Positions 8,478 to 59,843 of a stretch of 64,000 bases of DNA are shown here, piece after piece (within the stretch, counting starts at the first letter, position 1; each line of letters opens with the position of its first letter). The notes beneath the pieces were generated by a model. That model made no database searches. It worked only from the letters and a program-made list of their open reading frames with translations, and was not told the origin of the DNA. The position numbers and the translations under genes are program-made. Origin of the DNA: Antedon mediterranea (lineage: Eukaryota; Echinodermata; Crinoidea; Comatulida; Antedonidae). The stretch is from NCBI RefSeq assembly GCF_964355755.1, contig NC_092673.1, positions 16,559,001-16,623,000 on the forward strand. Reading direction: 5' to 3'.

Positions 8478-8828
8478 TTACATAATGCGATAGTTGACAC
8501 TGAACCACGTTCGTTTTCCTTTCATCGAACGCTCCAGTTCATCGAACCAATACGGTATCTGCATCTCAGCCAGTGGCGGTGGTGATGCAAGATGATCAAC
8601 ATTCAACGATGATGATGATGATGATGGTGGTGCTGGTGATGTAACTTTAACTGTTGCATTTCGCTGACATTTCAAGTTCTTCAAAGAAGCGCATAGACTG
8701 TCAACACTCTTAACGTATCGATCGGTGGCCATAGACACGACTCCGTTCACATCGTTCTCTACAAAGTCATCTACTCTGTACTTTTCCGAAAAGAATCTGC
8801 ATACATCCATTTGCGTACATCGATTCAT
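8478..8828 (-). CDS. Hypothetical small protein, 116 aa
   Basis: The start is taken at the ATG at 8828 (MNRCTQMDVCRFF); the longer frame above it only has non-ATG starts and overlaps the neighbouring gene. The protein has a Cys-containing N-terminus, a mixed helical middle and a serine run from an ATC/ATG trinucleotide tract (8607-8627). It diverges from the gene at 8863 with only 34 bp between the ATGs, matching the tight spacing elsewhere in the block. No family is recognised. Confidence 0.5.
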   Translation of the reverse strand: MNRCTQMDVCRFFSEKYRVDDFVENDVNGVVSMATDRYVKSVDSLCASLKNLKCQRNATVKVTSPAPPSSSSSSLNVDHLASPPPLAEMQIPYWFDELERSMKGKRTWFSVNYRIM

Positions 8829-8862
8829 CACAAACACACAGGCGCACACACACACTTTAGAA

Positions 8863-9582
8863 ATGTCCACACTGCGTATACCCTTACTGCGATTGCCTAT
8901 TTCTGACGACGACAATGATGATGATGATGATGATAATGATAATGATACTACTTTAACAGATTCACGATTTACAGAGTTGAGTGAGAGGTACGCTAAGCTG
9001 ATTAACAGTTTTAGATTGACCAGCGATGAGAACGCGAGGCTATCGAACGTCAACCGACAGTTGAAAAGTCAACTGGAAAGTGTTAGCGACGAACGAGACG
9101 AACTTCAAAATCGACTTGAAACCGATGCACACGTTCGAGATTTGCAAGAGGATCCATCGCCCATCGAGCAGTTGGTCGAAATGTACGCCAGCGTTGTGAA
9201 CGTGCCCATAACCGAATTGAGGAACGAACGTACAATCAACGGACTGTCAAGTTACTACGGCGTTGCTTTCTGGTTCCGCCTGTTGGTCGAAGAAACGTTC
9301 AATTTCCTCGATAATAAACTCAAAAAGCAACTGACAAATGAATACAATCTAAATTGCCACAAATTTGTCACCATTGTCGTCGAAAATGGAGTGACCGGTT
9401 CGCTGTGTCAAATGATTCGACAGTTGCAATTGTTCAACTTAAACAAAAACAAACTAACCACCGAAATCAATCACAAAATAATTGCCAAGAATCTCTCTGA
9501 TGAATATCAACGGTTCACCGTTCTGATTGTTCCCATCGTTGTCAAGGAGGACGCGGCTCGTCGTACACAAACGTCACTGTAA
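8863..9582 (+). CDS. Hypothetical coiled-coil protein, 239 aa
   Basis: The start is ATG 8863 (MSTLRIPLL). An acidic run (GAT tract, 8908-8943) lies near residues 16-27. A heptad-rich stretch at about residues 40-90 (LSERYAKLINSF, ARLSNVNRQLKSQLESV) predicts a coiled coil. A mixed alpha/beta C-terminal half follows. The last 76 bp overlap antiparallel with the end of the next gene (9507-10544). Function unknown. Confidence 0.7.
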   Translation: MSTLRIPLLRLPISDDDNDDDDDDNDNDTTLTDSRFTELSERYAKLINSFRLTSDENARLSNVNRQLKSQLESVSDERDELQNRLETDAHVRDLQEDPSPIEQLVEMYASVVNVPITELRNERTINGLSSYYGVAFWFRLLVEETFNFLDNKLKKQLTNEYNLNCHKFVTIVVENGVTGSLCQMIRQLQLFNLNKNKLTTEINHKIIAKNLSDEYQRFTVLIVPIVVKEDAARRTQTSL

Positions 9583-10544
9583 GAAAATACGTCAAAGTAA
9601 TGCACATCGTCCACGATGCATTCATGGAACTTGACAAACGGAGGTATGGACAGTGGAAACATCGTGGAAGCTTCTCTCGTGCACGCTTCCTTGATTTCAG
9701 GCGGCACTGCTTTTCCGTTCCATAGTACGCATTCTCTTGTCTTCCAAAGAACGATTCCTTCTACGCCCACGCGCTGTCGGTGATTATCGCCCGTGAACAC
9801 TAGGTTTTGTTGCGGATCGTACAGACCGACATTGTATTCATCGTTTGAAACGTCCACGCACGGACGCCATCTCTGGAACGTTTCGCAAAATCCACTGTAT
9901 TCGGCTGCATCCAACAGTATTCCAACGCTTAACAAAAGACGAACGTCCCGGCGCACAAGCATCAACGATGGAATCAAGCGTATCAATCGCAACAGTCTGT
10001 GCTCTCTATTACTACTCGGAGAAACTGTCGAATCGATTGCCAGCTTGTTGTCCAGAAACTTGTTGTACTGGAAGAAATCGTCTCGTTCTTTTTCGTTACA
10101 ACACAGCGCAGTCATTTTCCATAACGGAAACATACAAGTCTGTGTTTTCACCATGTCCGAACGTGAAGCGAGTAGTTGATCTTCGTCGACAACAAGACGA
10201 GTGCGATGGCGTCGTTCCGCTTCTATCACTGTCAAAACAATGGAAACTCCGTCATCGTACAACCGTTGGTTTTCACAGAAATTGTACACACGTGCGCCAA
10301 AGTTATGCCTACCGTCTCGAAGCTCTAACGCGATGGCAATTCGTCGAATCTCTTTAGGCGAGCACGTTCGAAACCAAAGTTCGAATTCATACGTATCCTG
10401 TTGGCTTTGATGAAATGATGCAGTGCTAGTGATCGTTCTCGACGTACCGCTGAAATCGGAAGCTATCAAATGCGCCTTTGTTGGAACGTGTGGCGATTTC
10501 AAACTGAGCGCAAACATAATTCCATAATTCACATAAAAAGGCAT
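9507..10544 (-). CDS. Hypothetical protein, 345 aa
   Basis: A complete frame from ATG 10544 to a stop at 9507. Its composition is soluble, rich in Cys, Arg and aromatic residues, with no signal peptide and no long hydrophobic segment. The 5' end is 61 bp from the caspase-like gene that runs the other way, so both share a short divergent promoter. The 3' end overlaps the gene at 8863-9582. I recognise no domain. Confidence 0.75.
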   Translation of the reverse strand: MPFYVNYGIMFALSLKSPHVPTKAHLIASDFSGTSRTITSTASFHQSQQDTYEFELWFRTCSPKEIRRIAIALELRDGRHNFGARVYNFCENQRLYDDGVSIVLTVIEAERRHRTRLVVDEDQLLASRSDMVKTQTCMFPLWKMTALCCNEKERDDFFQYNKFLDNKLAIDSTVSPSSNREHRLLRLIRLIPSLMLVRRDVRLLLSVGILLDAAEYSGFCETFQRWRPCVDVSNDEYNVGLYDPQQNLVFTGDNHRQRVGVEGIVLWKTRECVLWNGKAVPPEIKEACTREASTMFPLSIPPFVKFHECIVDDVHYFDVFSYSDVCVRRAASSLTTMGTIRTVNR

Positions 10545-10605
10545 ACTAATAATGATTGACGTTCAGATTGCACTCTGACGACTTGTGGTTAAATTACTAA
10601 ATAAA

Positions 10606-11415: not shown

Positions 11416-11418
11416 AAC

Positions 11419-13659: not shown

Positions 13660-13665
13660 AAAAAA

Positions 13666-13729: not shown

Positions 13730-13730
13730 C

Positions 13731-14867
13731 TCACAATACATTGCAATTACACGAGTAACTTGCGTCCATGTCTTCTACACCGAGTGTAACATTGTCCAAC
13801 AGTCTACGTCGGCCAATAAACGATGGTGGGTTCACGACTTCATCGCCGGTACGCAGACAACGTCTAAGTCTGTCTCGTTTGATTTTGTTCTCGTCAATAC
13901 ACAAATCATCACTATCATCACATTCGTTGTGCCGGCCCAAAAATAGAGAAAACACACTCTCGGTGCTTGCTCTGTCCGGTTCGTGTAACACGGTTGATTC
14001 GGTTACGCACGGAGGCAACGTGATTCCAATGGCACCTAATCGTTTCCATACACTCGGTTGAAATATGTCGGCACTTGACGTGAACGCCGTACTGCGATCA
14101 TTCACTTCTGTGAGTAATCGTAACGGACATACAAACTGCGAGAATACTGTATCGATGTACTGACGATACTGATACCAATTTCGTAACGGATTGCGCCTAT
14201 TCAACGACACGTCTGAAATGAACGCTCGAACGTCAGTGTCGGCCAATTCGAAATCTAATACAGTCCGGTTACCGTCATCCTCCTCCTCCTCCTCCTCCTC
14301 ATTCTCTTGACCAAGAAAAACCAAGTCTCGAGATCGATTGGCAAGATCTACAAACATGTCGTTCATCGTTTGCAACGAGAAAACGGCTGTAAGAAAGTCA
14401 GCGTTTAACCATCGAATCGGTTCGTTGACTCGAGCTTTAAGAAATTTCGGCCGATTACCCGTTTGTATATCACCTCCTACGTACAATTGATCGAGACACG
14501 TCTTCAGAATGCGCGCACAATCAGACGCTTGCGAGCCCTGATTGTACGATAAACACAAGTGTCGGAATATTCTCATGAGAAGCTCAAAGTAAGGATTGTC
14601 CGAACCGTAACGTTTACCATCAAAGTACCATTGAAACGTTGCAACAGTGTCTATAGTGTACGATCCAACGAACATTCGCCAATCGTGCATCGAGTCTAGC
14701 GTACGAAATAGATCCATAAATTGTGTAAAATCGTCTAATCTAGCCATCCATAAACGTTCAGTTTTTTTGTCATCATCGTCTACAGTCAAAAGTTTCGACC
14801 AAGAAACGTGCACGGCAGGTGATGGAAGTCCGAGTCTCAACACACACACTGTCTTTAACAATTCCAT
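13731..14867 (-). CDS. Hypothetical protein, 378 aa
   Basis: The start is ATG 14867 (MELLKTVCVL); upstream codons lack an ATG. A soluble protein with a Glu/Asp run (EEEEEEDD, CTC/CTT tract at 14279-14302), many Trp and Tyr in the first half, and an Arg-rich patch near the C-terminus (NKIKRDRLRRCL). No transmembrane segment or known motif. It lies between DNA polymerase (convergent) and a small gene on the same strand. Confidence 0.75.
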   Translation of the reverse strand: MELLKTVCVLRLGLPSPAVHVSWSKLLTVDDDDKKTERLWMARLDDFTQFMDLFRTLDSMHDWRMFVGSYTIDTVATFQWYFDGKRYGSDNPYFELLMRIFRHLCLSYNQGSQASDCARILKTCLDQLYVGGDIQTGNRPKFLKARVNEPIRWLNADFLTAVFSLQTMNDMFVDLANRSRDLVFLGQENEEEEEEEDDGNRTVLDFELADTDVRAFISDVSLNRRNPLRNWYQYRQYIDTVFSQFVCPLRLLTEVNDRSTAFTSSADIFQPSVWKRLGAIGITLPPCVTESTVLHEPDRASTESVFSLFLGRHNECDDSDDLCIDENKIKRDRLRRCLRTGDEVVNPPSFIGRRRLLDNVTLGVEDMDASYSCNCNVL

Positions 14868-15299: not shown

Positions 15300-16079
15300 T
15301 CATTTCAATTGATAGCGTTTTCGTTTGCTGCCAGATCGTTTACGGCACATGTAATGGAATGCTACATTGATTTGCAACAGTTTCTGATCAGTCAACGGTT
15401 TACCGTACTGCAGTTCATGTTCCATAGACAGTCGACAGTCAACTGAATCGAAATCGTTGATGTGTCTTAGAATTGTATCGAGAAATATGCGGCCGGTACG
15501 TTTGAGTGAATCGACCGTTTGAAATTGCGTGTTGCAACGGAGTGACGGTGAAAACAGTTGAAACTTTCGATTGCGTCCGTCTCCTCCGTCCTTGCGATCG
15601 TTTGAGATTGTAAACTTGATGGATGGGAAACGATCGTTACTGTCCACCGACTGAGATTCGTTCAACTTGAGGCGTTCCACAACAACCGATGGATTGTCTC
15701 GAATTCCATAAATTCTTCCCGCGTGATTCAGGTTATTTGTAGACGTGTGCATCGGAACGCTCTTGAACTTTCCCCATAACAGTGTCTGATGAAATTGATA
15801 ATTCAATGACGTTTTTGTTCGTACGTTGAAATTTCCTCTCGTCGTAATGTTTGTCGAGCCGGTGGATGCAAACGACAAGGCGGTGGATCCTCGACATAAC
15901 GGCGATTGAAATTCTACCATGTCGTCTTGTAATTTGGTTCCTCGCATGTGTATGGAATGTGTCTTTTCACGTTTGTCGTACGCGTATCGATGAGCAATGT
16001 TCTGCGACGACACCACGTTCACTAGGAAGAAATTGATGGCAGCTGTTTTACACGTAGATTCGACTTGGACGTGCACCAT
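15300..16079 (-). CDS. Hypothetical protein, 259 aa
   Basis: ATG 16079 (MVHVQVEST) to 15300. The first 58 bp overlap the end of the protein kinase gene upstream on the same strand, so it is the third gene of an IAP-kinase-259 aa series. Basic C-terminus (CRKRSGSKRKRYQ), a possible nuclear signal. Otherwise soluble and without a recognised domain. A long CAC tract follows the stop (15248-15277). Confidence 0.75.
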   Translation of the reverse strand: MVHVQVESTCKTAAINFFLVNVVSSQNIAHRYAYDKREKTHSIHMRGTKLQDDMVEFQSPLCRGSTALSFASTGSTNITTRGNFNVRTKTSLNYQFHQTLLWGKFKSVPMHTSTNNLNHAGRIYGIRDNPSVVVERLKLNESQSVDSNDRFPSIKFTISNDRKDGGDGRNRKFQLFSPSLRCNTQFQTVDSLKRTGRIFLDTILRHINDFDSVDCRLSMEHELQYGKPLTDQKLLQINVAFHYMCRKRSGSKRKRYQLK

Positions 16080-17712: not shown

Positions 17713-18945
17713 TTAAGAGAGAATGGCTTTCTGACGTTTATCTATTTTACCTCGACAAATCGGACACAACAGCAAACTGTTTGAACACGACCAGCAGGCG
17801 ACCAAATGCGAACATGGAATGAAAAGAACACAAACGTCAGCGTCCATGCATATCTTACATGTTTTTTTTTCGCGTAAATCGCGCACAACAGATTGCAAAT
17901 CTTCTTCTTCCTCCACTTCTTCCTCTTCTACCACTGTTGGTTTATCGTTCACTGGAATCGTGACAGCGTTCAGAAGCTCAAGGCTAGACGTAAAGTTTCC
18001 ACCGGTTCTCTTCACGTGATCGTTTACAGTAGTCGATACATGTTGCATGTCAAAACCCATTTCTAAAACTTTCACAACGATTTCAGAGCGCATTGCAATA
18101 TCAAACGGACTTTTTGACGAAATAAGAGCCGTCTCGATGAAAGGAAAACCTTTTTCGATTCTCAACCAATTGCAGAACGGAAACCACTTTGCATGCTCGA
18201 TCCAAGGATTATCGTCTAATTGCCAGTCTTTCAGTCCACCGCCGCAATGGAAACACATTGCCTGGCTCCGATTGATTGCAAAGAATCCGGCCTCGGCTAT
18301 TCCGTTCGGCGTATGATCGGTAGCCCATACTGTAGTAAACGTCATTTTTCGAACATTCAAAAGAGCGTATTGTGGATGCATTGCCCGTTGCCTATTGGTG
18401 GTGGTGGTGGTGGGGGTCGCCACGGTGGCCGCGGTGGATAACATGAACTTACACAACGGAAAATGTTTTCTATGCTCTTCGTCGACATTCACTCCTCTTT
18501 TCCATCGCTCAAGTAAACCGTTGCAAGAGAAGCATTCGACTACGTCACAGCATGACCTGTAATAAAATCCAGACTTTGCTAAAGTGCACGCCGATACGAT
18601 GTGTCCAAATGGCCAGTTTTTAAAAGTCGACAATCTGACCATATGCGAGTTTGAGTCGACCAAATGTGTTTTACTGCCGATTAAAGGACTGCTGTTACCA
18701 CATGACATCAGTTTGCACAACGGGAAGTGTTTCTTGTGCTCTGTATCGGCATCTGCTCCGGCGTTCCATCTCGAAAGTTTACCGTGACAACGGTAACATT
18801 CTACCCGGTCGTCTTGCCCCGTATAAAAGAAGCCCGACATTGCTAACGATGTAGGCGATATCACGTGTCCCGCAATCCAAAACTCATACGTGGCCAATCG
18901 TCTTTCATAACATTCCATCGCGCCTGTATGCACTATTTTATTCAT
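17713..18945 (-). CDS. iap: Inhibitor of apoptosis protein, BIR-BIR-BIR-UBA-RING
   Basis: 410 aa from ATG 18945 (MNKIVHTGAM); the upstream extension is encoded by a TG microsatellite and is unlikely to be translated. Three BIR domains each show C-x2-C-x16-H-x6-C: about residues 11-79, 104-170 and 195-265. The third has the XIAP-like DDNPWIEHAKWFP block. A UBA-like segment (VLEMGFDMQHV) follows, then a C3HC4 RING (CKICMDAD to CPICRG) near the C-terminus, giving E3 ubiquitin ligase activity in this family. This full animal-type architecture is larger than the usual two-BIR baculovirus IAPs and suggests capture from a host. It is expected to block caspases in the cytoplasm. Confidence 0.95.
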   Translation of the reverse strand: MNKIVHTGAMECYERRLATYEFWIAGHVISPTSLAMSGFFYTGQDDRVECYRCHGKLSRWNAGADADTEHKKHFPLCKLMSCGNSSPLIGSKTHLVDSNSHMVRLSTFKNWPFGHIVSACTLAKSGFYYRSCCDVVECFSCNGLLERWKRGVNVDEEHRKHFPLCKFMLSTAATVATPTTTTTNRQRAMHPQYALLNVRKMTFTTVWATDHTPNGIAEAGFFAINRSQAMCFHCGGGLKDWQLDDNPWIEHAKWFPFCNWLRIEKGFPFIETALISSKSPFDIAMRSEIVVKVLEMGFDMQHVSTTVNDHVKRTGGNFTSSLELLNAVTIPVNDKPTVVEEEEVEEEEDLQSVVRDLREKKTCKICMDADVCVLFIPCSHLVACWSCSNSLLLCPICRGKIDKRQKAILS

Positions 18946-19042
18946 TTCTGTCTGTGTGCGCGAGCGGGTGTGTGTGTGTGTGTGTGTGTGGCCCGAAGAG
19001 TATATATTATAGCAATTTGTAAATTCAGATTCACCACACACG
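18946..19042. promoter_or_regulatory. Divergent promoter between IAP and a 120-aa gene
   Basis: 97 bp separate the two ATGs. A TATA element (TATATATTAT, 19001-19010) lies about 33 bp before the rightward ATG, and a TG dinucleotide run (18968-18990) lies on the IAP side. No clear TATA box was seen for the leftward gene. Confidence 0.5.
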
Positions 19043-19405: not shown

Positions 19406-19537
19406 TTTCTCTTGCGCCGGTATTTTCTTCGGTAGATTTGATATGAATTTTTACTCGACATACAACTTGTAATATAGAAACAACTGAATGTATTCTCCTT
19501 CATTCATAAGCAAGTCAAACACGAGTGTAGGTGCAGA

Positions 19538-22632: not shown

Positions 22633-22664
<32 letters not shown>

Positions 22665-22689: not shown

Positions 22690-24330
22690 TCATCTACATG
22701 GTCGTTTAGCAGATGAAACCTCTTCTTCATCATCGGCCACCACCACCGTATTATATTCGGATCTGGATTTTTCGACGCTTACTATGAGCGGTACGTCGTC
22801 GTTGACTTTCACATACATTCGGCGTATTCCATCATGTAATTTTAATTTAGCGTTGGTGCCGAATGAATTCGACAAATGTTTAATGTCCTCGTCGCTGAAC
22901 ACGCAGAATTCTACTGTAGTTGCAATATATTGACTCAGTCTGAGAGCCGACATGAGAAACGACATGATCAGTTTCCGATCGTTTGACATGATGTGCATAT
23001 GTTCCACCACCACAACGTTTCGATTCGGGCTTTCGTTGCCAAATTTGATGTCTCCAATCGAAATGTCATGTTCGTGTACTAGATACACCAATCTATCTTC
23101 AACGCGTTTCAACGAAAACTGTTTACCGCCAAACAATACAGTTGAGTCGTGTAGTTTCGAAGCCGCCTTTTCTAGTTTCGATACACATCGACGTTCCGGT
23201 ACAGGGTTCAAACATTCTTTTAAAGCGTCCGTAAACTCGACTCCCAAGAACGGACTGAATCTATCGATGTATGAATTGTATTTCTTGCTGCTGGAACAAT
23301 GCGACAGTGAAAATGCGTCGGTCAGTGATCTATCCGGATTCACGTGCGTGTACCAAAACTGGAGATCACGTTCGTTCATCGGACCACGTAGTTCTACCGA
23401 ATGTCTACACACCTTAATCAAATTGTTGTACGCAAATTTGTCCTTTTTTAAATCACAATAGTCGCTTTGCGTCTCAAACTTATTCCGATTGTTGTCATCA
23501 TAAAACATTAAAGCCACACTCATCGAGGCGCTGTAAACGTCCGAATTTCGACGCAACATCTTCACTCGTCTGTCTGACATCACATGACTTATGTCCCTGA
23601 AAGGTATCCTTGTCAGTTTCTCCTCACTCCTGACGCACGAATAGTTTGGTTCGGTGTCGGAAAAGCGTAGTCGACTTCCCGGTGGCAAGTACTTTGACGC
23701 CATGGAACCGGTTCGAACGATACCCAAACACCGATGGCCATGTCTCTCTTTCACAGAAACGCCAAACGTGCTTGCACCGTGCTTTGTAAACTCGGCAGAA
23801 CCAAAGTCTATTATACGAAATCGATTATCTAATCGACTATACGCCACGTTCTCGATTGTTATGTCGTTGTGAACCACACCTGCGTTTTCGAGAAACGTCA
23901 ACGCTTTGCAAACATGTAACGAAAGCGTTTTCACGCAAGGCAGAAGCTTGTAACAATAGCGTACCCTGTACAGATTACATCCTTCGTTTCTCATTGTGAT
24001 TGATATTGCGATGTTACGCCGATAAGAAACTTCGAGCAGACGAGGCGTACACATTCGAGCCGCGTCCGTTTGTTTTAAGTGTGCAAGAACCAAAACTTCC
24101 TTGTTTCCCGACAAGTTCACGTCTTCATGCTCGAGCGTAGACGTGTGGCTGGCCGTGAAATCATACAATGTCTTTATCACAACGTGCACGTTTTCTTTAG
24201 CTGTCTTCACTTTGCCATGTTTCCCACTTTCTTGAATTCGAATAGCGCCGTACTTGCCGTTTACAGCCGGTAAACTTTCATACTTTCTCGTTGTTATTTG
24301 CGTCTTGTACAGGGGTAGAAATTCAACCAT
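22690..24330 (-). CDS. Serine/threonine protein kinase-like protein 2
   Basis: 546 aa from ATG 24330 (MVEFLPLYKT); the longer frame starts at TTG and would overlap the divergent neighbour. Kinase signatures: GKHGKV loop, beta-3 Lys in VVIKTL (about residue 53), catalytic loop HNDITIEN (about 154-161) and IDFGSAE (about 174-180). The C-terminal half shares a domain with kinase 1 (GDIKFGNES, VEHMHIM, MSALRLSQY, VEFCVFSD), so the two are ancient paralogues of nearly equal length rather than a host kinase picked up twice. It ends in a basic Lys-Arg-Pro-Cys-Arg tail. Its ATG is 12 bp from that of the 826-aa gene. Confidence 0.88.
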   Translation of the reverse strand: MVEFLPLYKTQITTRKYESLPAVNGKYGAIRIQESGKHGKVKTAKENVHVVIKTLYDFTASHTSTLEHEDVNLSGNKEVLVLAHLKQTDAARMCTPRLLEVSYRRNIAISITMRNEGCNLYRVRYCYKLLPCVKTLSLHVCKALTFLENAGVVHNDITIENVAYSRLDNRFRIIDFGSAEFTKHGASTFGVSVKERHGHRCLGIVRTGSMASKYLPPGSRLRFSDTEPNYSCVRSEEKLTRIPFRDISHVMSDRRVKMLRRNSDVYSASMSVALMFYDDNNRNKFETQSDYCDLKKDKFAYNNLIKVCRHSVELRGPMNERDLQFWYTHVNPDRSLTDAFSLSHCSSSKKYNSYIDRFSPFLGVEFTDALKECLNPVPERRCVSKLEKAASKLHDSTVLFGGKQFSLKRVEDRLVYLVHEHDISIGDIKFGNESPNRNVVVVEHMHIMSNDRKLIMSFLMSALRLSQYIATTVEFCVFSDEDIKHLSNSFGTNAKLKLHDGIRRMYVKVNDDVPLIVSVEKSRSEYNTVVVADDEEEVSSAKRPCR

Positions 24331-24342: not shown

Positions 24343-26823
24343 ATGTCGGCGATTTACAGATGGCAAGACACAAATTCAAAGAAATTGTACGCGGCACTGA
24401 TCGTTGAACGTAAATGGATAATACTGGAACGTTTCTCCCCTAGTGATGAATGGAGTCCACCGTTGCCTACACTCGACGTTACACCGGACACATTGGAAAT
24501 CGAAATGATAACAAAGCCAAGCTGGAACGGTGTTGTGTTCGGAGACTATAATCCGCATCCGTTGCGTGAGCGAGGAGTCGCAATGAGACCGACGCTAAAT
24601 TTAGCTTCGAATCTGTCGATGGCGCAGATATCCGAATGGCCAACGCATGTCGGTAAGTTCACCGATACCGATATGACGTACGAGAAGAGAACCGATGTTC
24701 TTGTGATTAACGGCTGTAGGGTAAACAGATCATATCCGACAATTTCGAGAATCATCAATCATCATCTTCACCACCACCGTCCCAATGTGAAAACTAAAAA
24801 CAAACGTCGACTCATCACGCATATTACACCACCACCACCATCACCACCACCACCACCACCACCATCATCATCAGAAGAAGAAGACTTTATGCACACGCCT
24901 CGAATGTTGAAGCTGTTCACGTCGATGACAAGCGATCCGAACGTAGCTCTATTGGCACTCTCATTTGAGCTGTTCACCGCGTCTACCAAAAATGTGCACG
25001 CGCTACGACGGCTGCTCTCGAACATATGCGAGAGAACATCGGCATCAGATCACATACTGACGCAATCGAAACAGTTTTGGTTTCATATGCGATCGCATGG
25101 AATCAATCAACACAACTGGCATTCAAAATCTCCATCGAATGTCGTTGCAAAGGCGAGAGAGTATCATCGTCCGCCAGTACAAGACGAATTGATTCTGGCC
25201 AGCGTTCTGTTGTGGGAAACGGCCACGTTTGCGCGTGGTAGACGTACCCCGTTCACTTTTGAAGCAGTAAAGATGCAGTGTTATTTGAACGAAGCGCGTG
25301 CTGCTGCTGCTGCTGCTGCTGTTGAAGAAGAAGAAATCCTACGCAGAGCGTTGAATGAAGTCGCCAAGAAAAGAGAACGCACGACGTTCGCGTTAGAAGC
25401 TGAGAAGATGGGTCTAGAGAACTACGCAGTTATGAACGGTGTCTACATCGATCTTGAAACAGTTTTGTTCAATCTTCCAAAATTACGCGCTACTCTCTAC
25501 AAAGAAATCGGAAAAAGATTGTTACTGTTTGAGGATTTTGAAACGACGATTCAATGTCTGTGCCTGGACGTGCTTCGACAAGCTTCTTCCTTCTTGAGCA
25601 GTTTCGAACTCATCAAATCCATCGCTCCTTTGTATCCGAAAAAACGCAGACGAATCACACAGAAACGCATCGAAGGAATCGACAGGTTTCTTACGAATTT
25701 TGAGCGACGCGTTGACGGCAAACGAAGAAAACGTTTTGTCAAGTACCTGCAAACTTGGATTCCGAAATTTCCTGTTCCGGAACACGACGGTTACGCTTCC
25801 TTACAACAAAGATGCGATCAAAACGAGGCGCTTCGACTGTTTGCAATTGCCTATCCGGCCATAACATTCTCGTTCGCCGTTCCCGAAGTAAAAAACGACG
25901 CCCAGCTTATGTTTGCTCTCGCCAACTGCACATCACACCTGGGTAGACTGATGTGGTTTGACTTTGATCCGGTGACGGTACGCATCAGATCATCCGTGAT
26001 CGGTCTCACGCCCCTACAAGAACAACGCCTCGAAATGGCTTCTCTTCAACCAGCGTATGACGCGTACGAAGAGTCTATCCGCGTCACTCAGCACATTAGA
26101 CACAGTATACCTTTCATGCACGCATCGATATTCGAAGGCGTTCAAGCCAACGTGGTTTGCCGACAGAACGAACGCTACGTAACTCGTCTCTCGGCATATC
26201 CTCTTATCTTGGCCTCGTATGACGTTATAGACGCGAATGAAGGTAATCGGCAACCTCCACAACCCAAACACGGAGAATGTACATCCTATTACCAGAACGT
26301 TGTCACTGTCGACAATGCTGGAGTGGTTAAATGGAATCATACATCGCCATGTTTTGCGCGATTCATTCAATGTGCAAACGTTTTGCTTTTATGTCATAAG
26401 AAATCAGACTTTGTTCGTGGCCCTATTCATTCCCCTGAAGATAGCGTTCACGTACTTTGTCAACTTGCACTCGATCACAAGGACGACGATAACGATGACG
26501 GAGAACTTGCGTCACCGAGATCGTTTCCTTGTCATCTACCTCGACCGTTTGATGACAATATAGTATTGATAAACGATGACAGTGGTGGTGATGGCGAGGA
26601 GAAAATACGGTTCTGTATCGTCAGCCCGGACGATATGAGGCCTTTTTTCCCAAAAGATTTCATCGAAAGTATCATTGCCGATCCCCATCGGACGCCCGTT
26701 ATACAGAAAAAGATGGTGTTTTACTTGAGGGCCGATCTTACCAATGAATACACAGAAAATCACTTTCTCTCCGACAAGGACAGAAGTGTTCTTGTAGCCG
26801 GTTCAATCATAAGACGTCGGTGA
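24343..26823 (+). CDS. Hypothetical large protein, 826 aa
   Basis: A complete frame from ATG 24343 (MSAIYRWQDT). The N-terminal third ends in a proline run (24829-24864) next to a Ser/Glu patch. Residues about 320-326 are an alanine run (GCT tract, 25302-25322). A helical middle part rich in Arg/Lys (KKRRRITQKRI) could bind nucleic acid. The C-terminal part is mixed alpha/beta with acidic insertions. No signal peptide, membrane segment or recognised domain. Its size and its place beside a kinase suggest a virion or tegument-like protein, which is only a guess. Confidence 0.8.
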   Translation: MSAIYRWQDTNSKKLYAALIVERKWIILERFSPSDEWSPPLPTLDVTPDTLEIEMITKPSWNGVVFGDYNPHPLRERGVAMRPTLNLASNLSMAQISEWPTHVGKFTDTDMTYEKRTDVLVINGCRVNRSYPTISRIINHHLHHHRPNVKTKNKRRLITHITPPPPSPPPPPPPSSSEEEDFMHTPRMLKLFTSMTSDPNVALLALSFELFTASTKNVHALRRLLSNICERTSASDHILTQSKQFWFHMRSHGINQHNWHSKSPSNVVAKAREYHRPPVQDELILASVLLWETATFARGRRTPFTFEAVKMQCYLNEARAAAAAAAVEEEEILRRALNEVAKKRERTTFALEAEKMGLENYAVMNGVYIDLETVLFNLPKLRATLYKEIGKRLLLFEDFETTIQCLCLDVLRQASSFLSSFELIKSIAPLYPKKRRRITQKRIEGIDRFLTNFERRVDGKRRKRFVKYLQTWIPKFPVPEHDGYASLQQRCDQNEALRLFAIAYPAITFSFAVPEVKNDAQLMFALANCTSHLGRLMWFDFDPVTVRIRSSVIGLTPLQEQRLEMASLQPAYDAYEESIRVTQHIRHSIPFMHASIFEGVQANVVCRQNERYVTRLSAYPLILASYDVIDANEGNRQPPQPKHGECTSYYQNVVTVDNAGVVKWNHTSPCFARFIQCANVLLLCHKKSDFVRGPIHSPEDSVHVLCQLALDHKDDDNDDGELASPRSFPCHLPRPFDDNIVLINDDSGGDGEEKIRFCIVSPDDMRPFFPKDFIESIIADPHRTPVIQKKMVFYLRADLTNEYTENHFLSDKDRSVLVAGSIIRRR

Positions 26824-28850: not shown

Positions 28851-29969
28851 TTAATTTCAACACAAGGCTCCTTTTGTGGTGACACTAGCCATATTTTCTT
28901 TTATTATCCCTAACACGATGTTCTCTAAAAAAAAAAATTGACCATAACATGTCACTTTGTAAACTAAACGGTATACATTCTTTTAGTTATAGTTGTTCAC
29001 TAACACGATTTATTCGATAATGAACCCTAATTAAAAAAAACAAACAAAAGTGTATTCGAAGTTATACTAAACGGTATATTAATAGAAGACAAAGTATTTG
29101 TTATCGATGAAGGGATAATGAAATTGATATTATTATAATTTAAACGGCGTGTTTAGTATTTTGTAGTCCTGATAACGAATACAATAAGTAGTTCGCCCTC
29201 TATTGACAAATAATATACCTGCGTTATATGCCGCGTGACAGACAATAATTATAGGCCTATTGTGTTTCTAAATGGGTATATTTTAGTTTTATTATAGAAG
29301 CTCTGTAACGCGATGTTGTCGATAAAGGGATAATGAATTGATAAAAGGATAATGAATTGATGATTGAGTGAGAAGTATAAGGAATGATCTAGAAGGTTAT
29401 GAACATAATATTGTATAAGGCGATGTATGTTCTCTCTTGTGTGTAAACTGAATGCTTAAACATTGACGCACACTGTCATTGAGGTCGAAGTAATCATTGG
29501 ATACGGATGCGTGTTACTGCTATATCAGGATCAGGACTGCATTATTCAAACACATAAAACACTGAGAGTAATAAAGAGAATCTATGCTTGATTGTTTTAC
29601 ACTCGAAAAATTTATTAGTATTTTGTAATAAAATAAAGGTAATTCAAATTGTTACATGATGCATTAATAAATTAATTAATGTTCATAAACGTCCAAATAC
29701 TAGTTTTCTAGAATTTGTATTAAAATAATGTCTGCTATCTGTCTATGTAGCAGATATATGTTCATGTTTCGTTCTGTTCTGCATACGGGATGTGTGTGTG
29801 TGTGTCTTCTACTGACTGGCTGACGTTCACGATTTAACGTTACCGCTCCAAGAATTCAATACTACAATACATTGTTTGTTGTAATATTGATATTGCTATA
29901 CCTTTCAATGTTCATAAATGTCAATATGCTGGTGCTTCCTATTCCATCTATCTTTGGTACAGTTCTTGA
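28851..29969 (+). repeat. Direct segmental duplication, copy 2
   Basis: Partner of 27145-28302. It runs into the 3' end of the intact AlkB-like gene, so this is the better candidate for the original arrangement. The TG run is short here (29791-29804). Confidence 0.85.
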
Positions 29970-30536: not shown

Positions 30537-30630
30537 GATTACTTTATTGCTACAAGAATTCACTACAACTTCCAATTAAAGTTTGAAACTAAAACTCCAT
30601 ACTGGTCGATTTTTATACTTTGCGATGAAG

Positions 30631-31571: not shown

Positions 31572-31606
<35 letters not shown>

Positions 31607-32645: not shown

Positions 32646-32702
<57 letters not shown>

Positions 32703-33678: not shown

Positions 33679-33709
<31 letters not shown>

Positions 33710-36325: not shown

Positions 36326-36395
36326 CATTTTCTTAGAGGAATGTTTTTTTTTTTTTTCCTTTGTTTTTTTAAATGAAAATATAACTTCAAGTCAA

Positions 36396-49474: not shown

Positions 49475-50512
49475 TCATGACACAGAGGAGGGAGAACGAG
49501 GAGAAGGCGGCGGCAGAGGAATGAGAATCGTGAATTCAACTTCTCCGTTCGACAGATTTCTTCTGACAACGGGACAATGCATGAATCTGTAAACGGACTG
49601 TATACATTTTTCAAAGTCGTGCGCGTTAGTCCATCCAACTTGTGAGTAGAATTCACGATATGCGGTGGGCGTCATGACGTCGGCCGGTCGAAGAGCAAAC
49701 TTGTCACCGTGTTTATCTATTACAATGGGCTCGGCGCGCAAAAAAGAGGCCGATTCACCGGATTGTAACGGTAATCGTTTGTTTCTAACGCTCGTTCTGA
49801 AATCAACTGAGCGCATGATGGCTTCGAAGTATTCGATATCTGGCGCGGGAGGAGGAAGCGGTATGTTCAGTATGTATTGTCTGACTTCGACAGTCCACGG
49901 TGGCTGTTTATCACGTTGCACCAACGCTCTGTAATACGATTCTGGAGATTTGTATTGTGGACTGTCGGTCAAGAGAACCTTGTAGAAGAGTGTACTCGCA
50001 TCGCGTATATCGAACGTGGTGTCGCGATCCATGTATCGAATCGGGATAGCCGCGTACGGAATCTTTGTGTTTTGTTTCCAGCATTTCCGGGCCGCGATCG
50101 ATGCATGACCGAAGCGTATCCGATCAGGATTGTTACACGACAGCTGCGTGTACGCGCTTGCAGGTAAACGATGTGTAGTGAGAAACGTCGTTCTGTCTTC
50201 ATCGTGGTAACATATCAAAGTGTCAACATCTATTAATATCCATTGATTGGGATGTACGTGCGGTTGGAGTAATCGTCTGCCTTGTACCGTCATTTTGTTA
50301 AGCTGTATTCGTTTATTTGATTTTGAATGTTGTAGAACGGGTAGACGTGTTGCTGCTGCTGCTGCTGCTGCTTCATCATCCGTCTTCATCACCTTCCAAC
50401 TCGTCCAATCGGTATTATTAAATTCATCTCGTAGTGTTTCACCAACACCACCCGTCGCATTCTCGTTGCCTACAATAAACCAATCGGTGTTGAAGTTGAG
50501 AGCCTTTGTCAT
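49475..50512 (-). CDS. Hypothetical protein, 345 aa
   Basis: ATG 50512 (MTKALNFNTDW) to 49475. Soluble, with an eight-Ala run (GCT tract, 50350-50373), several conserved-looking Trp/Tyr blocks (VHPNQWILIDVDTLICYH, YRALVQRDKQPPW) and a proline-rich C-terminus. No recognised domain. Its 5' end diverges from the gene at 50616; the 103 bp between hold a TC run. Confidence 0.75.
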   Translation of the reverse strand: MTKALNFNTDWFIVGNENATGGVGETLRDEFNNTDWTSWKVMKTDDEAAAAAAATRLPVLQHSKSNKRIQLNKMTVQGRRLLQPHVHPNQWILIDVDTLICYHDEDRTTFLTTHRLPASAYTQLSCNNPDRIRFGHASIAARKCWKQNTKIPYAAIPIRYMDRDTTFDIRDASTLFYKVLLTDSPQYKSPESYYRALVQRDKQPPWTVEVRQYILNIPLPPPAPDIEYFEAIMRSVDFRTSVRNKRLPLQSGESASFLRAEPIVIDKHGDKFALRPADVMTPTAYREFYSQVGWTNAHDFEKCIQSVYRFMHCPVVRRNLSNGEVEFTILIPLPPPSPRSPSSVS

Positions 50513-50615: not shown

Positions 50616-51542
50616 ATGATGTCAAACGATGACCATAGATTTGCTTACAGATTTAACAACGATTCAACGTGGTACATCGAAGACCATGCACTTACGTACG
50701 GCGATGCAAAAGAGCGTATAATGCTTCAGTGGAACATAAATCCGACGTCGCGTAGACTAGAAATGCGATGTGAAGATAGCATGCGTATACTCGACGACTA
50801 CGACCCGATCATAAAGAACAGGAACGTTATAATCGATAGTTATTCCGTCCAATATCCTATAGATAATTTCGAAGATATGTTTCATAGAAAAATTGATGAA
50901 CGAAAGAAAATGAGTAAAGAAGATATACGAAATTGGCTATCAACTGCGTTCAAGTACTGCAATATCGACTACAACTACCCGTATACTCAACCGTTACCGA
51001 TAATGTCAGATTTGTACGTGTACGTGAACAATCTTCACGCTAAGCTGAACAATTGCAACTCGTTGTCAAAGTTGACGAGATGTGTGCGACTGTTGCAGGA
51101 AGCACGATCGATGTTCCCGAACGATACAAAAATGTTTGGTTTGGTAGGCTACGAATTGGACACGTTGCTCAACATATGTTTAGGCGTGTATCAGTATCCA
51201 GAGTACAACAAGGCATCAACGTTTGGAGAAGTGATAAGTCTTCGACAGTCAATGTACGTGGGAGACTTGATGAACTTTATTCAGAATGCCCTCGTCAGTT
51301 ACAATGCTCAGTCAGTATCAGTAGAGAGAGAAGCTTACGACGGCGGCTACAGCGCTATCAGAACGGACATTTGTATGCTTAAACACAAATTGTTGGCAGC
51401 AAACAGTTACGAAGACGTCCGAGATTGTTATGACGTGTGCTTAGATATGAAAATGGCCAGTGCAGAACATGATCATTTGAGTTATTATTTCAGAGACTGC
51501 AGTGAAGCACTGTTGAACATTCTATGGGATATTGAGATTTGA
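50616..51542 (+). CDS. Hypothetical protein, 308 aa
   Basis: ATG 50616, with a second in-frame ATG next to it. A soluble, mostly helical protein, rich in Tyr, Asp and Asn (ITRK-poor), with the segments MSKEDIRNWLSTAFKY and LTRCVRLLQEARSMF. It lacks the homopolymer runs seen in its neighbours. AATAAA signals (51552 onward) follow the stop. No family recognised. Confidence 0.75.
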   Translation: MMSNDDHRFAYRFNNDSTWYIEDHALTYGDAKERIMLQWNINPTSRRLEMRCEDSMRILDDYDPIIKNRNVIIDSYSVQYPIDNFEDMFHRKIDERKKMSKEDIRNWLSTAFKYCNIDYNYPYTQPLPIMSDLYVYVNNLHAKLNNCNSLSKLTRCVRLLQEARSMFPNDTKMFGLVGYELDTLLNICLGVYQYPEYNKASTFGEVISLRQSMYVGDLMNFIQNALVSYNAQSVSVEREAYDGGYSAIRTDICMLKHKLLAANSYEDVRDCYDVCLDMKMASAEHDHLSYYFRDCSEALLNILWDIEI

Positions 51543-51761: not shown

Positions 51762-52610
51762 ATGACAATGATCAAGGTACCGTTAGAGGTATGCCTGAGT
51801 ATACGCGATTGTCTAAAAGATGATCCGACACGCCGACTGTGTACGTCGAATATTTCAAAAGTTTGGAACGACTTGATATACGGTGATGAGAAAACGGATC
51901 GTTGTCGAAAGTGCACTCGATTCTTGCTACAGAATTGTATACACTGCGGCGCAAAAGCATGCGATACATGTAAAATGATGTATAGATGCGCAAATTGCAA
52001 GGTGTCTTCGTGTCAGAAATGCGTCGTGACTGTAGTACGTATTGACAGGAAATATTGTAACGAATGCACTTGCGCGAGTCGAAGACGCAAGTGTATTGCT
52101 CAGATTTTGCAACGTATGCACAACAACGTAGAGGATCAGAAAATGGATTTGCGGTCTATTGTACGTTTTGTGAGTGAAGCAGTCGAGCACGATCCAGACG
52201 AGATTTTGATCGCGGCAATACGCGAACGACAACGTGCCACGATGGGAAGAACGTTTGCTGAAAGTGTACTCTGCATACAATCTCTGCAACGTTTAACTTT
52301 GATAGATGTGCCGATCGTCGACAGTTTTTTATCTACGTTGATGACAAATGTAGGAGGTGCAGGAGGAGGAGGAGGAGGAGGTTTGAAAGACGTTCGACTT
52401 GTAAGGTGCAACAGGCTGACGTTTGGTAATGATATGCGGCCGAGCGCTTATCCGATGACGGTGTGTATCGAATGTATGGACGTATCTCCGATACAATTGT
52501 CAAGTGTGTTTGACAAGGAGCATGTGACGTTAGTGTTGAGAAATTGTAATTTTAGCGAAGACGAACTGGCTGCAGTCGACGACTTTAAATTTGTTATAGA
52601 AACGAAATGA
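51762..52610 (+). CDS. F-box-like protein with a Cys-rich zinc region, 282 aa
   Basis: The start is ATG 51762 (MTMIKVPLEVC); the upstream extension begins at GTG. Residues 4-45 (VPLEVCLSIRDCL...LCTSNISKVWNDLIYG) resemble an F-box, which would dock to Skp1 in an SCF ubiquitin ligase. Next comes a cluster of about 14 Cys with one His (CRKCTRFLLQNCIHCGAKAC, CKMMYRCANCKVSSCQKC, CNECTC), probably binding two or three zinc ions like B-box or RING relatives. The C-terminal part is helical then LRR-like, with a Gly run (52353-52382). Proposed role: redirecting host ubiquitination. Its TGA overlaps the next ATG as ATGA. Confidence 0.75.
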   Translation: MTMIKVPLEVCLSIRDCLKDDPTRRLCTSNISKVWNDLIYGDEKTDRCRKCTRFLLQNCIHCGAKACDTCKMMYRCANCKVSSCQKCVVTVVRIDRKYCNECTCASRRRKCIAQILQRMHNNVEDQKMDLRSIVRFVSEAVEHDPDEILIAAIRERQRATMGRTFAESVLCIQSLQRLTLIDVPIVDSFLSTLMTNVGGAGGGGGGGLKDVRLVRCNRLTFGNDMRPSAYPMTVCIECMDVSPIQLSSVFDKEHVTLVLRNCNFSEDELAAVDDFKFVIETK

Positions 52611-54208: not shown

Positions 54209-54595
54209 TTAGAGACAAGCCTGAACGTACGCTAACATCGCTGCCGATACACCACCGACGTACCGATACTCACACGAGAATCCGAAACGATCGTTGGGAC
54301 ACACGCAATAGTTACCGTCTGCGGCGTCAGAGTATACACATCGGCCATTATGCGCTGTACACATCGTGCAGTTTACTGTTGTTTTAGGAATCGATTGTTT
54401 GCACACGGCTCCGGAGACGCCATCGCCTACACACACGCAATATTTCGATACACCATCGTACTCCATTCGTCCACTGATGCCACACAACCGTTCGTTGCAT
54501 GCGCTATTTCTTCCACGGGACACGTAGACAAGTAGCAACGTTATGCATACGATTGTCAACAAAGTGATAGTGATAGTTTTGACTTCTAGAATCAT
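54209..54595 (-). CDS. Single-pass membrane protein with two EGF-like modules, 128 aa
   Basis: ATG 54595 (MILEVKTITI). Residues 7-26 form a signal-anchor. The outside part has two Cys-rich modules; the second (CTMCTAHNGRCVY...YCVCPNDRFGFSC) has the EGF spacing C-x2-C-x6-C-x9-C-x-C-x8-C. The first (CNERLCG...YCVCVGDGVSGAVC) is similar. Such modules usually mediate protein contacts, and viral EGF-like proteins are known in several families. On the same strand as the next two small membrane genes. Confidence 0.8.
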   Translation of the reverse strand: MILEVKTITITLLTIVCITLLLVYVSRGRNSACNERLCGISGRMEYDGVSKYCVCVGDGVSGAVCKQSIPKTTVNCTMCTAHNGRCVYSDAADGNYCVCPNDRFGFSCEYRYVGGVSAAMLAYVQACL

Positions 54596-54604
54596 AGTTT
54601 ATTA

Positions 54605-57640: not shown

Positions 57641-59215
57641 TCAATGGATTCGTTGTTTTTTCTTAATATTGCCGCATTGAGGAAGACGCTTTCGTTTTGT
57701 CAGTTGTTGGCGCATCTCATCACGCAAAGTATCGGCCATCGAAAGCAAACTGTCTTGAAACGTAGAAACCATATCGGTTTCTCGTTTTTGCATATTTTCT
57801 ATTACTTGTTGATATTTGATTTCTCTTTCTTCCGATTTGGTGATGTGATTTTGGAATTCTATCAACATGTTATTGAATTGTGTTTGTAAAGTACTCAATT
57901 TGGTCTCTGTTTCGCGTAAATCTTGGCGTGCCTGCTCCAATTGGCTTATCAGTTGTTGAATGCCAATGTTAGATGAGGGTATATTATTTACATCACTAAT
58001 AAAACCTCTTGTTGAAGGATACTTGTCTATTAGAGAATCTTTTAAGATTCGTTTTCGTTTGTACTCACATTTTTCTTTTAATTTCGTCATTTGATCTGAT
58101 ATCTGAAGAATGTTTATTATGGCAGTCCAATCACTGCTTGCATGTGATTCCATCGCTCGTCCAACAAATCTAGCAAATAGTGTTTTGTTGATTGAATTGG
58201 TTTTGGCAATATTCGCAATGGCGGTGGCAACACCATTCTTTTTCTCCGATGCGCACGGTGTGGAAAAGGCACCGTGCAAAGTTATGGGATACTTCATGTC
58301 CGCACCGCAGTGATAGGTTCTTTTTTCTTGTTTATGCAATAACAATATACGGTTGTTGTTGGTCACCGTAATTTGCAACTCTTCCAGTTTACCGTTGTCC
58401 AATTCGTTATCCAGAGTCAACTCTAGTCGCATGCGTCGTTTTACAGTTATCGGCATGATGGCGGCCGTATAGACAACTCCATTTGGAGTTCTAAGTCGAA
58501 CGCCATTCATCGGCGGCGACGACGACGACGACGACGACGCAACATCATCATCGCATTGTGGACTGTAGAGACAGCCGAGTGCCATATAGAAACAAATACG
58601 TTTCACGTCGCCATTTATTATGTCAAAAATCGGCACGGGCATCGTCGATACATCGGCGCCGACAAAGTCAGCAACACAGTTTTTATTTCGTGAAGAAACG
58701 TTCATAAACACGTTGTCCCTACCGTATTGCTGCATTATTGTTTTCCTATTGTCTTCTCCAAGTACACTCATGACTTGATTTTCAATTGTAGATTCGACAA
58801 GTCGCGATGATTCCAGAACACTTGCAACAACCGCGTACTCTTCTTCACCGTCCGTACACATCAATAACATTGGCATCTCGTGCATACGTCCTTTTGCCTT
58901 TTGCAAAGATCCGATCATTCGACCGTATGATTGCGTTAGTGTATGTTCAGATCCATCGCAGAAAGCAATTAGTTTACCGAGACTGCCTCGAACATTTATC
59001 ATCGTGTTTGCCTTTGTTGATTCTTGCGGCGTCGGTGGTGGTGGTGATGGGTGTGGTTGTTGTTCTGATGCTATATCATCTTCTTGTTGGTACTCCATGA
59101 AAACTGGTTCGACCGGGTCTTGCAATTCCAACATTGCCGTCTTTAATATGTCGTCGTCTGTTGAATTGAACGCTAATAGGTTTTCTAAAAACATGTCCAT
59201 ATCGCAATGATCCAT
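57641..59215 (-). CDS. Hypothetical protein with coiled coil and nuclear signal, 524 aa
   Basis: ATG 59215 (MDHCDMDMFLENLL); the frame extends upstream only to TTG and past the TATA box. An acidic, hydrophobic N-terminus (residues 1-50) looks like a transactivation-type segment. A proline run follows (HPSPPPPTPQ), then a globular middle with a six-Ser run (58518-58535). Residues about 410-500 are a long coiled coil (LISQLEQARQDLRETETKL). The tail TKRKRLPQCGNIKKKQRIH is a good bipartite nuclear signal. A nuclear regulator or capsid-associated protein is plausible, not shown. Confidence 0.8.
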   Translation of the reverse strand: MDHCDMDMFLENLLAFNSTDDDILKTAMLELQDPVEPVFMEYQQEDDIASEQQPHPSPPPPTPQESTKANTMINVRGSLGKLIAFCDGSEHTLTQSYGRMIGSLQKAKGRMHEMPMLLMCTDGEEEYAVVASVLESSRLVESTIENQVMSVLGEDNRKTIMQQYGRDNVFMNVSSRNKNCVADFVGADVSTMPVPIFDIINGDVKRICFYMALGCLYSPQCDDDVASSSSSSSPPMNGVRLRTPNGVVYTAAIMPITVKRRMRLELTLDNELDNGKLEELQITVTNNNRILLLHKQEKRTYHCGADMKYPITLHGAFSTPCASEKKNGVATAIANIAKTNSINKTLFARFVGRAMESHASSDWTAIINILQISDQMTKLKEKCEYKRKRILKDSLIDKYPSTRGFISDVNNIPSSNIGIQQLISQLEQARQDLRETETKLSTLQTQFNNMLIEFQNHITKSEEREIKYQQVIENMQKRETDMVSTFQDSLLSMADTLRDEMRQQLTKRKRLPQCGNIKKKQRIH

Positions 59216-59252
59216 GATGACTACTGACGAATGCACGGTGAGCGAGTTAACG

Positions 59253-59260
59253 TATATATA
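59253..59260 (-). promoter_or_regulatory. TATA box of the 524-aa gene
   Basis: TATATATA lies 38-45 bp before ATG 59215 on the minus strand. The divergent IFITM-like gene starts 187 bp away. Confidence 0.55.
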
Positions 59261-59401
59261 GACCCAAACAGCCAATCAACGTCCAGCTTGAATAAGCGGT
59301 GTTGACTACCATTTGAAGATGATGCGTTGTTTTTTTGTTGTTTTTTTTGTTCACGCTGCTGTTTTTCGTAATGCAATAAGAGTATCGATTAGAGTGTATT
59401 T

Positions 59402-59843
59402 GTGTACGTGTACATTGGAGAGAAAGAGAATGCTTTTGTCATGCAATCTGTTTCCCGTATAGTGGCGAGAAGACCTAACAATTACCTGATTTCAGCTATA
59501 CTCGTGACTTTATTATGCTGTATTCCATTCGGTATTATAGGAATCGTGTACAGCGTAGATGTAAGTAATCTATTTCCTCTACAACCTCATCCCATCACCA
59601 CTTTTTTTTAAATTTTTTTAATCTATTTTAGTTTCTATTCTTTTACTTTTACAGAGTTCGAGAAAGTTCGACTACGGTGACAGTGAGGGTGCAGCCAGAT
59701 CAGCACGATCGGCAAAGAGATGGTCTATTGCAGGATTGCTGTTTGGAATCATCATCATCGTCGTCGTTTGCATCATATGGACCTTGAACTCAAGTCTACC
59801 TAATCATTCCACTCACCCTCCTTCGTTACAAGACATCATGTGA
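59402..59843 (+). CDS. IFITM/CD225 (dispanin) family membrane protein, two exons
   Basis: Exon 1 is 59402-59560 (or from ATG 59441), a 94-bp intron follows (59561-59654, GTAAGT...TTTTACAG), exon 2 is 59655-59843. Product 115 aa (102 aa from the later ATG). Exon 1 gives the intramembrane segment NYLISAILVTLLCCIPFGII with the double Cys and then YSVD at its end. Exon 2 carries the GD-x-x-x-A-x-x-S-x-x-A-K-x-W linker and a second membrane helix. The intron sits right after the YSV motif, the same place as in vertebrate IFITM genes. IFITMs restrict virus entry at membranes in vertebrates; other dispanins have neuronal or unknown roles. AATAAA follows at 59938. Confidence 0.85.

Follow-up and report, generated by a model that had tools for sequence, protein, structure and literature searches.

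The 64,000-nucleotide stretch of the crinoid Antedon mediterranea analysed here (the window; assembly GCF_964355755.1, contig NC_092673.1, positions 16,559,001 to 16,623,000) holds a block of compact genes set among repeats, at window positions 8478 to 59843, and raises the question of what kind of element this block represents. An original prediction, made from the letters alone, had read it as a largely intact endogenous large nuclear DNA virus of uncertain family. We confirmed the observation behind that prediction, while its interpretation was partly supported. The block probably stems from a double-stranded DNA virus whose lineage we could not place, as an endogenous copy or a large part of such a copy. 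The virus is predicted to have replicated in the nucleus, with its own helicase and a family B DNA polymerase that likely lacks proofreading. Endogenous large DNA viruses as such are an already known kind. The points that appear to be new, as read from the sequence, are the likely proofreading-less polymerase, a stand-alone CLCC1-type protein, a decoy-like CARD-caspase and predicted introns.

Viral origin is supported by a density of open reading frames (ORFs) far above chance and by their virus-like packing. Between 8401 and 59300 we found 21 ATG-to-stop ORFs of at least 190 amino acids (aa), the longest of 1451 aa, whereas the 50 sequences simulated under a first-order Markov model held 0.02 such ORFs on average, the longest being 202 aa. 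The run extends from 8863 to 59215 on both strands and is densely packed, in agreement with the claim of about 20 compact genes, divergent or overlapping: ORFs are separated by 3 bp at 11415/11419, divergent ATGs at 24330/24343 lie 12 bp apart, and ORFs overlap at 9507-9582, 16022-16079, 52607-52610 and 53473-53485. Gaps in the run lie at about 20.7-22.7, 26.8-29.9, 30.5-37.0, 41.4-46.5, 47.1-48.4 and 54.6-57.6 kb, with repeats in parts of five of them. The GC content is 0.41-0.48 in 20 of the 25 block ORFs measured and 0.34-0.38 in the remaining five (19.0-20.7 kb, 29.9 kb and 43.9 kb); in the gaps it is about 0.29-0.37. Pfam scans took in 26 of the 32 listed ORFs (of the other six, four lie on the strand opposite larger ORFs, and frame scans took in the remaining two) and further stretches beyond the ORFs, which exclude 30.5-37.0 and 47.1-48.4 kb. 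Neither Rfam families nor tRNA genes were found in the window.

The B-family DNA polymerase named in the original prediction scored above the Pfam cut-off. With E up to 1, the protein matched PF00136 and not PF03175, and it carries motifs A (DxxSxYP), B (KxxxN), C (DTDS) and KKRY of the RNA/DNA-primed family B type, with the catalytic aspartates D341, D446 and D448 kept. A Maverick or adintovirus origin was dropped on the same ground, PF03175 being the protein-primed family. Among the best 120 of 262 matches listed, the sole full-length relative is an unnamed ENA protein (P0001; 47% identical), and the others are prokaryotic-type family B polymerases that match only in part. To assess proofreading, we compared the four columns of 3'-5' exonuclease acids (ExoI-III) with 112 of the 119 listed references, seven having been dropped for length. 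In the order of the columns, the acid that prevails among the references is D (95 cases), E (86), D (95) and D (86); the window polymerase and P0001 have R and R, N and D, V and V, and a gap in both, i.e., four of four acids are lost in the former and three of four in the latter. The window polymerase is therefore likely to be without a working proofreading exonuclease, and the loss is mostly common to P0001. Exonuclease acids are similarly lost in Pol alpha, Pol zeta and archaeal B2, with the polymerase motifs kept as in Pol alpha and Pol zeta (PMC7544198, in excerpt); the window polymerase differs in sitting within a virus-like block, and the excerpted text of that source describes no eukaryotic viral polymerase with an inactivated exonuclease.

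Fold searches with a model of the polymerase gave no placement; they returned, at low TM-scores, polymerases from baculo-, hytrosa-, herpes- and mininucleoviruses, phages and other sources. The top match was an unnamed 739-aa protein, herpes helicase-primase (UL8-type) subunits were also matched, and the query-normalised TM-score was at most 0.36 among the 50 fold matches listed, a range that does not discriminate. Structure comparison against the PDB recovered the general family B fold only, and tblastn in a phage collection matched two Salmonella records at 26% identity along a third of the polymerase; one of the two is annotated as DNA polymerase II. As a side observation, a glycine run in the window polymerase, encoded by a triplet microsatellite, is much shorter in P0001.

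The second replication gene had been called a D5-type primase-helicase. Its relatives are two unnamed ENA proteins, P0121 (57% identical) and P0122 (37%), over 96% of the searched region; no named relative was present among 6349 candidates. Invariant in all three sequences are the P-loop GPPGTGK, E653, an MKEELDxG stretch, N724 and R735, read as P-loop, Walker B-, B'- and sensor-like motifs, the order of which we take to be that of superfamily 3 (SF3). Pfam, at E 1, yielded weak P-loop matches and no SF3 family, D5 or primase domain, and divergence could hide a D5_N or primase domain. Since no D5 or primase domain was matched, the earlier name is only half confirmed. The best matches of a helicase profile in the PDB were replication factor C P-loops (31 positions, E 0.002), and a fold search returned nothing at E 0.001 with a model (mean pLDDT 37) that was unusable and was set aside. 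Residues 409-450 are encoded by 126 nt that are bounded by GT and AG and contain a pyrimidine tract. Because these 42 residues are nearly missing from the relatives (none in P0121 and seven in P0122), they likely represent a frame-keeping intron.

A third gene points to the nuclear envelope. Its 190-aa product matches PF05934 (MCLC/CLCC1) at profile positions 214-349 of 549, roughly the MFH (membrane-fusion) region of CLCC1. Transmembrane (TM) stretches are predicted at 2-20 and 130-148 and the most amphipathic stretch lies at 100-117, giving the order TM, loop, amphipathic stretch, TM; the stretch at 38-58 is almost as amphipathic. Residues 204-378 of CLCC1 are homologous to yeast Brl1/Brr6 and have a TM, amphipathic helix, TM design, and CLCC1 is required for nuclear pore assembly (PMC13061601, 2026, in excerpt); the same text cites a preprint for a role of CLCC1 in herpesvirus nuclear egress. 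The window protein resembles these MFH proteins in the matched region and in its TM, Cys-containing loop, amphipathic stretch and TM, and differs from them in being a stand-alone protein of 190 aa that has no counterpart of the other parts of CLCC1 and is encoded within a virus-like gene block. Two stand-alone relatives of 193 and 197 aa, both unnamed ENA proteins, were found (P0123, 59% over 81%; P0124, 51% over 85%) in a search limited to short proteins, in which full-length host CLCC1 is too long to appear. Because these two further short relatives exist, the short form is likely an established gene rather than a stray exon. By analogy, we predict a role for it in crossing the nuclear envelope. 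A limited literature search found no paper on a viral CLCC1 homologue in herpesvirus nuclear egress, and a PDB sequence search with the CLCC1-type alignment found nothing that places the protein. The preprint on CLCC1 in herpesvirus egress reportedly describes CLCC1 homologues encoded by herpesviruses of molluscs and fish.

The block also has genes of cell-death and kinase type. The CARD-caspase, which adjoins the polymerase, keeps the dyad His and Cys (THG at 156, QACQ at 185). Relative to the caspase-3 chain, nine substrate-loop residues are absent from the loop carrying the SWR motif, which in caspases serves substrate binding. The protein is like caspases with CARD in combining this domain with a caspase fold and the His/Cys dyad, and differs both from them and from c-FLIP-type decoys in its shortened loop and in being encoded beside a putatively viral polymerase. 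Given the shortened loop, we infer a decoy that occupies CARD partners; the protein may instead be an active enzyme with altered specificity. The expected inhibitor of apoptosis (IAP) was borne out by BIR and RING domains above the Pfam cut-offs. The two paralogous kinases also held: kinase 2 scored above the cut-off, and kinase 1, which fell below it, is 34% identical to kinase 2, both having HND and DFG motifs. The features of the block are collected in Table 1.

Table 1. Features of the gene block, in window positions
Feature	Position	Strand	Basis
239-aa ORF, function not assigned	8863..9582	+	Weak coiled-coil matches below cut-off
345-aa ORF	9507..10544	-	No Pfam match
CARD + caspase-like protein, 269 aa	10606..11415	+	Pfam C14 9.9e-21, CARD 9.2e-10; caspase-3 alignment
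Family B DNA polymerase, 746 aa	11419..13659	+	Pfam 1.8e-20; relative P0001; motif columns; model and fold searches
378-aa ORF	13731..14867	-	No Pfam match
259-aa ORF	15300..16079	-	No Pfam match
Protein-kinase-like protein 1, 554 aa	16022..17686	-	Pfam Pkinase 3.4e-5, below cut-off; HND and DFG motifs
IAP, 410 aa: three BIR, UBA-like stretch (below cut-off), RING	17713..18945	-	Pfam BIR 2.7e-47, RING 3.7e-12
Protein-kinase-like protein 2, 546 aa, paralogue of 1	22690..24330	-	Pfam Pkinase 8.1e-8, barely above cut-off
826-aa ORF	24343..26823	+	No domain above Pfam cut-off
224-aa ORF, weak AlkB-type 2-oxoglutarate (2OG)-oxygenase resemblance	29862..30536	-	Pfam 9.2e-4, below cut-off
Array of about six 0.8-1.1-kb units	30628..36323		Repeat comparison; host satellite or viral repeat
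Putative SF3-type helicase ORF, 1451 aa (42 of them from a predicted intron)	37043..41398	-	Relatives P0121, P0122; invariant motifs
Predicted 126-nt GT-AG intron, in frame, inside helicase ORF	40050..40175	-	Comparison with P0121, P0122
CLCC1-type membrane-fusion-domain protein, 190 aa	46495..47067	-	Pfam MCLC 2.9e-16; relatives P0123, P0124; TM and amphipathic stretches
Multi-spanning membrane protein, 341 aa	48395..49420	-	Five predicted TM stretches
345-aa ORF	49475..50512	-	No domain above Pfam cut-off
308-aa ORF	50616..51542	+	No domain above Pfam cut-off
Cys-rich ORF, 282 aa, 22 Cys	51762..52610	+	No Pfam match
Predicted membrane protein, 292 aa	52607..53485	+	TM near 247-265
Membrane protein, 231 aa	53473..54168	-	Three predicted TM stretches
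Membrane protein, 128 aa, N-terminal TM, Cys-rich EGF-like ectodomain	54209..54595	-	EGF-like by eye; no Pfam EGF match
524-aa ORF	57641..59215	-	No domain above Pfam cut-off
Two-exon CD225/IFITM-type gene, viral or host	59441-59560, 59655-59843	+	Pfam CD225 3.1e-10 (exon 1), 6.5e-7 (exon 2), searched apart

Among 2.9 million viral contigs, no relative of the polymerase, helicase, CLCC1-type, 826-aa ORF or kinase queries (sequences and/or alignments) was found. Together with the partial prokaryotic-type polymerase matches and the lack of a named helicase relative among the candidates, this agrees with the earlier view of a viral origin without a clear family. Several observations weigh against this reading of the block. 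Pfam recognised no gene for a capsid, a packaging ATPase/terminase, an RNA polymerase or an integrase in the 26 ORFs and further stretches, just as the original prediction had recognised no capsid protein, terminase or RNA polymerase subunit; the ends of the block are undefined; and integration is deduced from interspersed repeats, not from reads. The joint occurrence of the polymerase, helicase and CLCC1-type genes is known from this window only. The alignments behind the exonuclease loss are only 21-24% identical, the polymerase model is of low confidence (mean pLDDT 54), the second ExoI column still holds an acid in P0001, and a glutamate lies two columns ahead of the ExoII acid in both polymerases. 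For the caspase, the loop gap was seen in a single pairwise alignment. The microsatellite contrast described below sets viral ORFs against host-like gaps and could predate integration. Finally, host genes may separate viral fragments here, the candidates being the intron-bearing genes at 59441-59843 and, by eye, at 41766-44312 and at 19.0-20.7 kb; in that case the block would not be one virus. With those gene classes unrecognised, no terminus defined and about half of the block consisting of sequence outside ORFs, the description as largely intact was not upheld.

Hallmark genes of Naldaviricetes (per os infectivity factors, PIF), Herpesvirales (terminase, herpes capsid) and the nucleocytoplasmic large DNA viruses (NCLDV; double jelly-roll capsid, A32 ATPase, RNA polymerase) gave no Pfam match in the 26 ORFs, which is weak evidence given that the copy is divergent and possibly partial. 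The alternative that we take most seriously, unlikely as we consider it to be, is that the block belongs to Nimaviridae or to other Naldaviricetes (relatives of baculo-, nudi- and hytrosaviruses) as a very divergent member, endogenised like the crustacean nimaviruses. The endogenous nimaviruses (majaniviruses, pemoniviruses, clopoviruses) share with the block their endogenous state, BIR genes and intron-bearing eukaryotic-like genes, and the nimaviral core list includes polymerase, helicase and protein kinase; with their repeated endogenisation they appear to offer its best functional and genomic parallel (PMC10871703, in excerpt). Baculovirus and hytrosavirus polymerases are also among the named fold matches, albeit at the non-discriminating TM-scores given above. 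However, no nimaviral core gene (wsv514 polymerase, wsv447 helicase, wsv360 capsid and others) could be recognised in the block, no baculoviral or PIF Pfam family was found in the 26 ORFs at the limits used, and no named nimaviral relative of the polymerase or helicase occurred among the matches listed. The polymerase is also far shorter than that of white spot syndrome virus (WSSV), which exceeds 2,000 aa, and the block differs from endogenous nimaviruses in having no tyrosine recombinase in the ORFs scanned and no TAACC array in the window.

A relative of the malacoherpesviruses or other Herpesvirales, using nuclear-envelope fusion for egress, would account for the CLCC1-type gene and would fit the role in herpesvirus egress for which PMC13061601 (in excerpt) cites a preprint. 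No terminase or herpes capsid domain was found in the 26 ORFs of this maybe incomplete block. The helicase is putatively of SF3 type, in place of the UL5/UL52 pair of the herpes type, and we regard a herpesviral origin as quite improbable. Slightly less probable again is a reduced NCLDV such as a mininucleovirus. The fold matches include the polymerase of Carcinus maenas virus 1 and the divergent one of Dikerogammarus haemobaphes virus 1. These crustacean viruses, which have reduced genomes with low-complexity regions (PMC6960288, in excerpt), resemble the block in their divergent polymerase and low-complexity tracts. According to the same text they keep the NCLDV capsid protein, packaging ATPase, three RNA polymerase subunits and thiol oxidoreductase, whereas none of these was recognised in the block, and the CLCC1-type gene would suggest a nuclear stage.

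An assembly chimera, in which free virus and host DNA or several unrelated pieces adjoin, has a similarly small chance of being correct. The linkage of genes and repeats does rest on the assembly rather than on reads, but repeats occur in five separate gene gaps and some of them are common to the right flank, which is not expected from one false join. A giant transposon or host gene cluster is just as poorly favoured: several genes beyond the replication pair have eukaryotic-type domains, some with predicted introns, but no PF03175 polymerase, integrase or transposase was found in the 26 ORFs and further stretches scanned, the genes are compact single ORFs with overlaps, and P0001 is the only full-length relative of the polymerase among the matches listed.

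If the block is indeed the copy of an unplaced nuclear virus, replication of the viral genome by its polymerase and helicase would have taken place in the nucleus, the site at which introns of viral genes would be spliced out. Particles would have exited via the nuclear envelope, with the CLCC1-type protein fusing membranes in a manner modelled on host CLCC1, as proposed for herpesvirus egress and nuclear-pore assembly, while the IAP and decoy CARD-caspase may have kept the infected cell alive. After integration, repeats would have settled between the genes, the frames being kept by recent insertion or by selection. More tentatively, and with a chance that we put at about one in three, the block may represent a new family, or a taxon of higher rank, of animal DNA viruses of which no member had been sighted before, characterized by nuclear replication, a proofreading-less family B polymerase, a host nuclear-envelope fusion protein taken over as a minimal 190-aa fusogen, and a decoy caspase and IAP guarding the infected cell, with at least two more members in unnamed public contigs. 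Few families of large DNA viruses are known from invertebrates, and most of these viruses came to light through disease; a lineage seen as genomic copies only would, if real, widen this picture. How nuclear membranes fuse is currently an open question, for which a virus-borne minimal CLCC1 domain could provide a small natural protein to test. Lack of proofreading would be unusual in a replicative viral polymerase and would predict a high mutation rate.

With respect to the state of the copy, the claim that most ORFs have no stop or frameshift stood as far as the open frames are concerned, and the absence of frameshifts was checked against relatives for the polymerase, helicase and CLCC1-type genes only. 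Perfect microsatellites were counted in 21 ORFs (26.6 kb; a set without the 19.0-20.7 and 43.9 kb ORFs and with the 128-aa ORF at 54209) and in the rest of the block (24.8 kb). By unit length, the counts in ORFs versus the rest were 2 versus 32 (unit 1), 0 versus 15 (unit 2), 13 versus 13 (unit 3), 0 versus 14 (unit 4) and 0 versus 1 (unit 5). Triplets thus make up 13 of the 15 tracts in ORFs, whereas all unit lengths occur outside them; one unit-1 and one unit-3 tract of the ORF set fall in the predicted helicase intron. As the tracts in ORFs are nearly all triplets, length changes that break the frame have been kept out of ORFs. Such protection fits recent integration, host selection or constraint while the virus was free. 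Triplet microsatellites also produce single-residue runs in many ORFs.

The host repeats that had been described around the genes were found as a BEL/Pao retroelement, a 30-bp satellite, and dispersed and tandem repeats both within the block and to its right, while Pfam gave no confirmation of LINEs (long interspersed nuclear elements) in the sequence it was run on (30.5-37.0 and 47.1-48.4 kb lie outside the scan). The BEL/Pao element occupies positions 2-4018 of the left flank on the minus strand and is probably young; its 1339-residue frame is open and reaches the window edge, so the neighbourhood is not visibly decayed. For the same reason, the element was dropped as a yardstick of decay. 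Together with the CARD-caspase and CD225 domains of the block, the BEL/Pao domains suggest that the host is an animal. About 28 copies of the 30-bp satellite lie at 7544-8376, directly left of the first viral ORF. The units of the large array are about 83-96% alike and are followed by 44/89-bp tandem units at 36395-36677, beside the helicase; the array may be either a host satellite or a viral repeat region with an origin-like role. A stretch near 42.6-42.9 kb is presumably the tail of a reverse transcriptase.

Introns in some block genes, absent from the original account, were predicted in the helicase and CD225 genes and, by eye, in a coiled-coil gene at 19-20.7 kb and a gene at 41.8-44.3 kb. 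The right end assigned to the virus coincides with the stop codon of the CD225/IFITM-type gene, which may be viral or host. Nine large ORFs have no Pfam match above the cut-off, one of them with weak coiled-coil matches, and PDB sequence searches with the 826-aa ORF and the kinase alignment found nothing that places either. The reported cluster of membrane proteins was recovered as four predicted membrane proteins within 48.4-54.6 kb. At 19013-20696 lie low-GC, coiled-coil-like ORFs with an apparent intron from 19912 to about 20000, which may be a host or acquired gene. The stretch at 41766-44312 resembles, by eye, a five-exon gene with a retroelement fragment in its largest intron; its frames are not all cleanly joined, and the pieces scanned gave no Pfam match. 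The AlkB-like ORF has apparently lost the expected iron-binding residues, judged by eye against the expected motif, and a 71% repeat match overlaps its start. To the right of the block, 60531-64000 is a duplication with a spacing of about 2 kb and 93-99% identity, in which a small membrane-protein-like ORF occurs twice (60860-61345 and 62861-63286).

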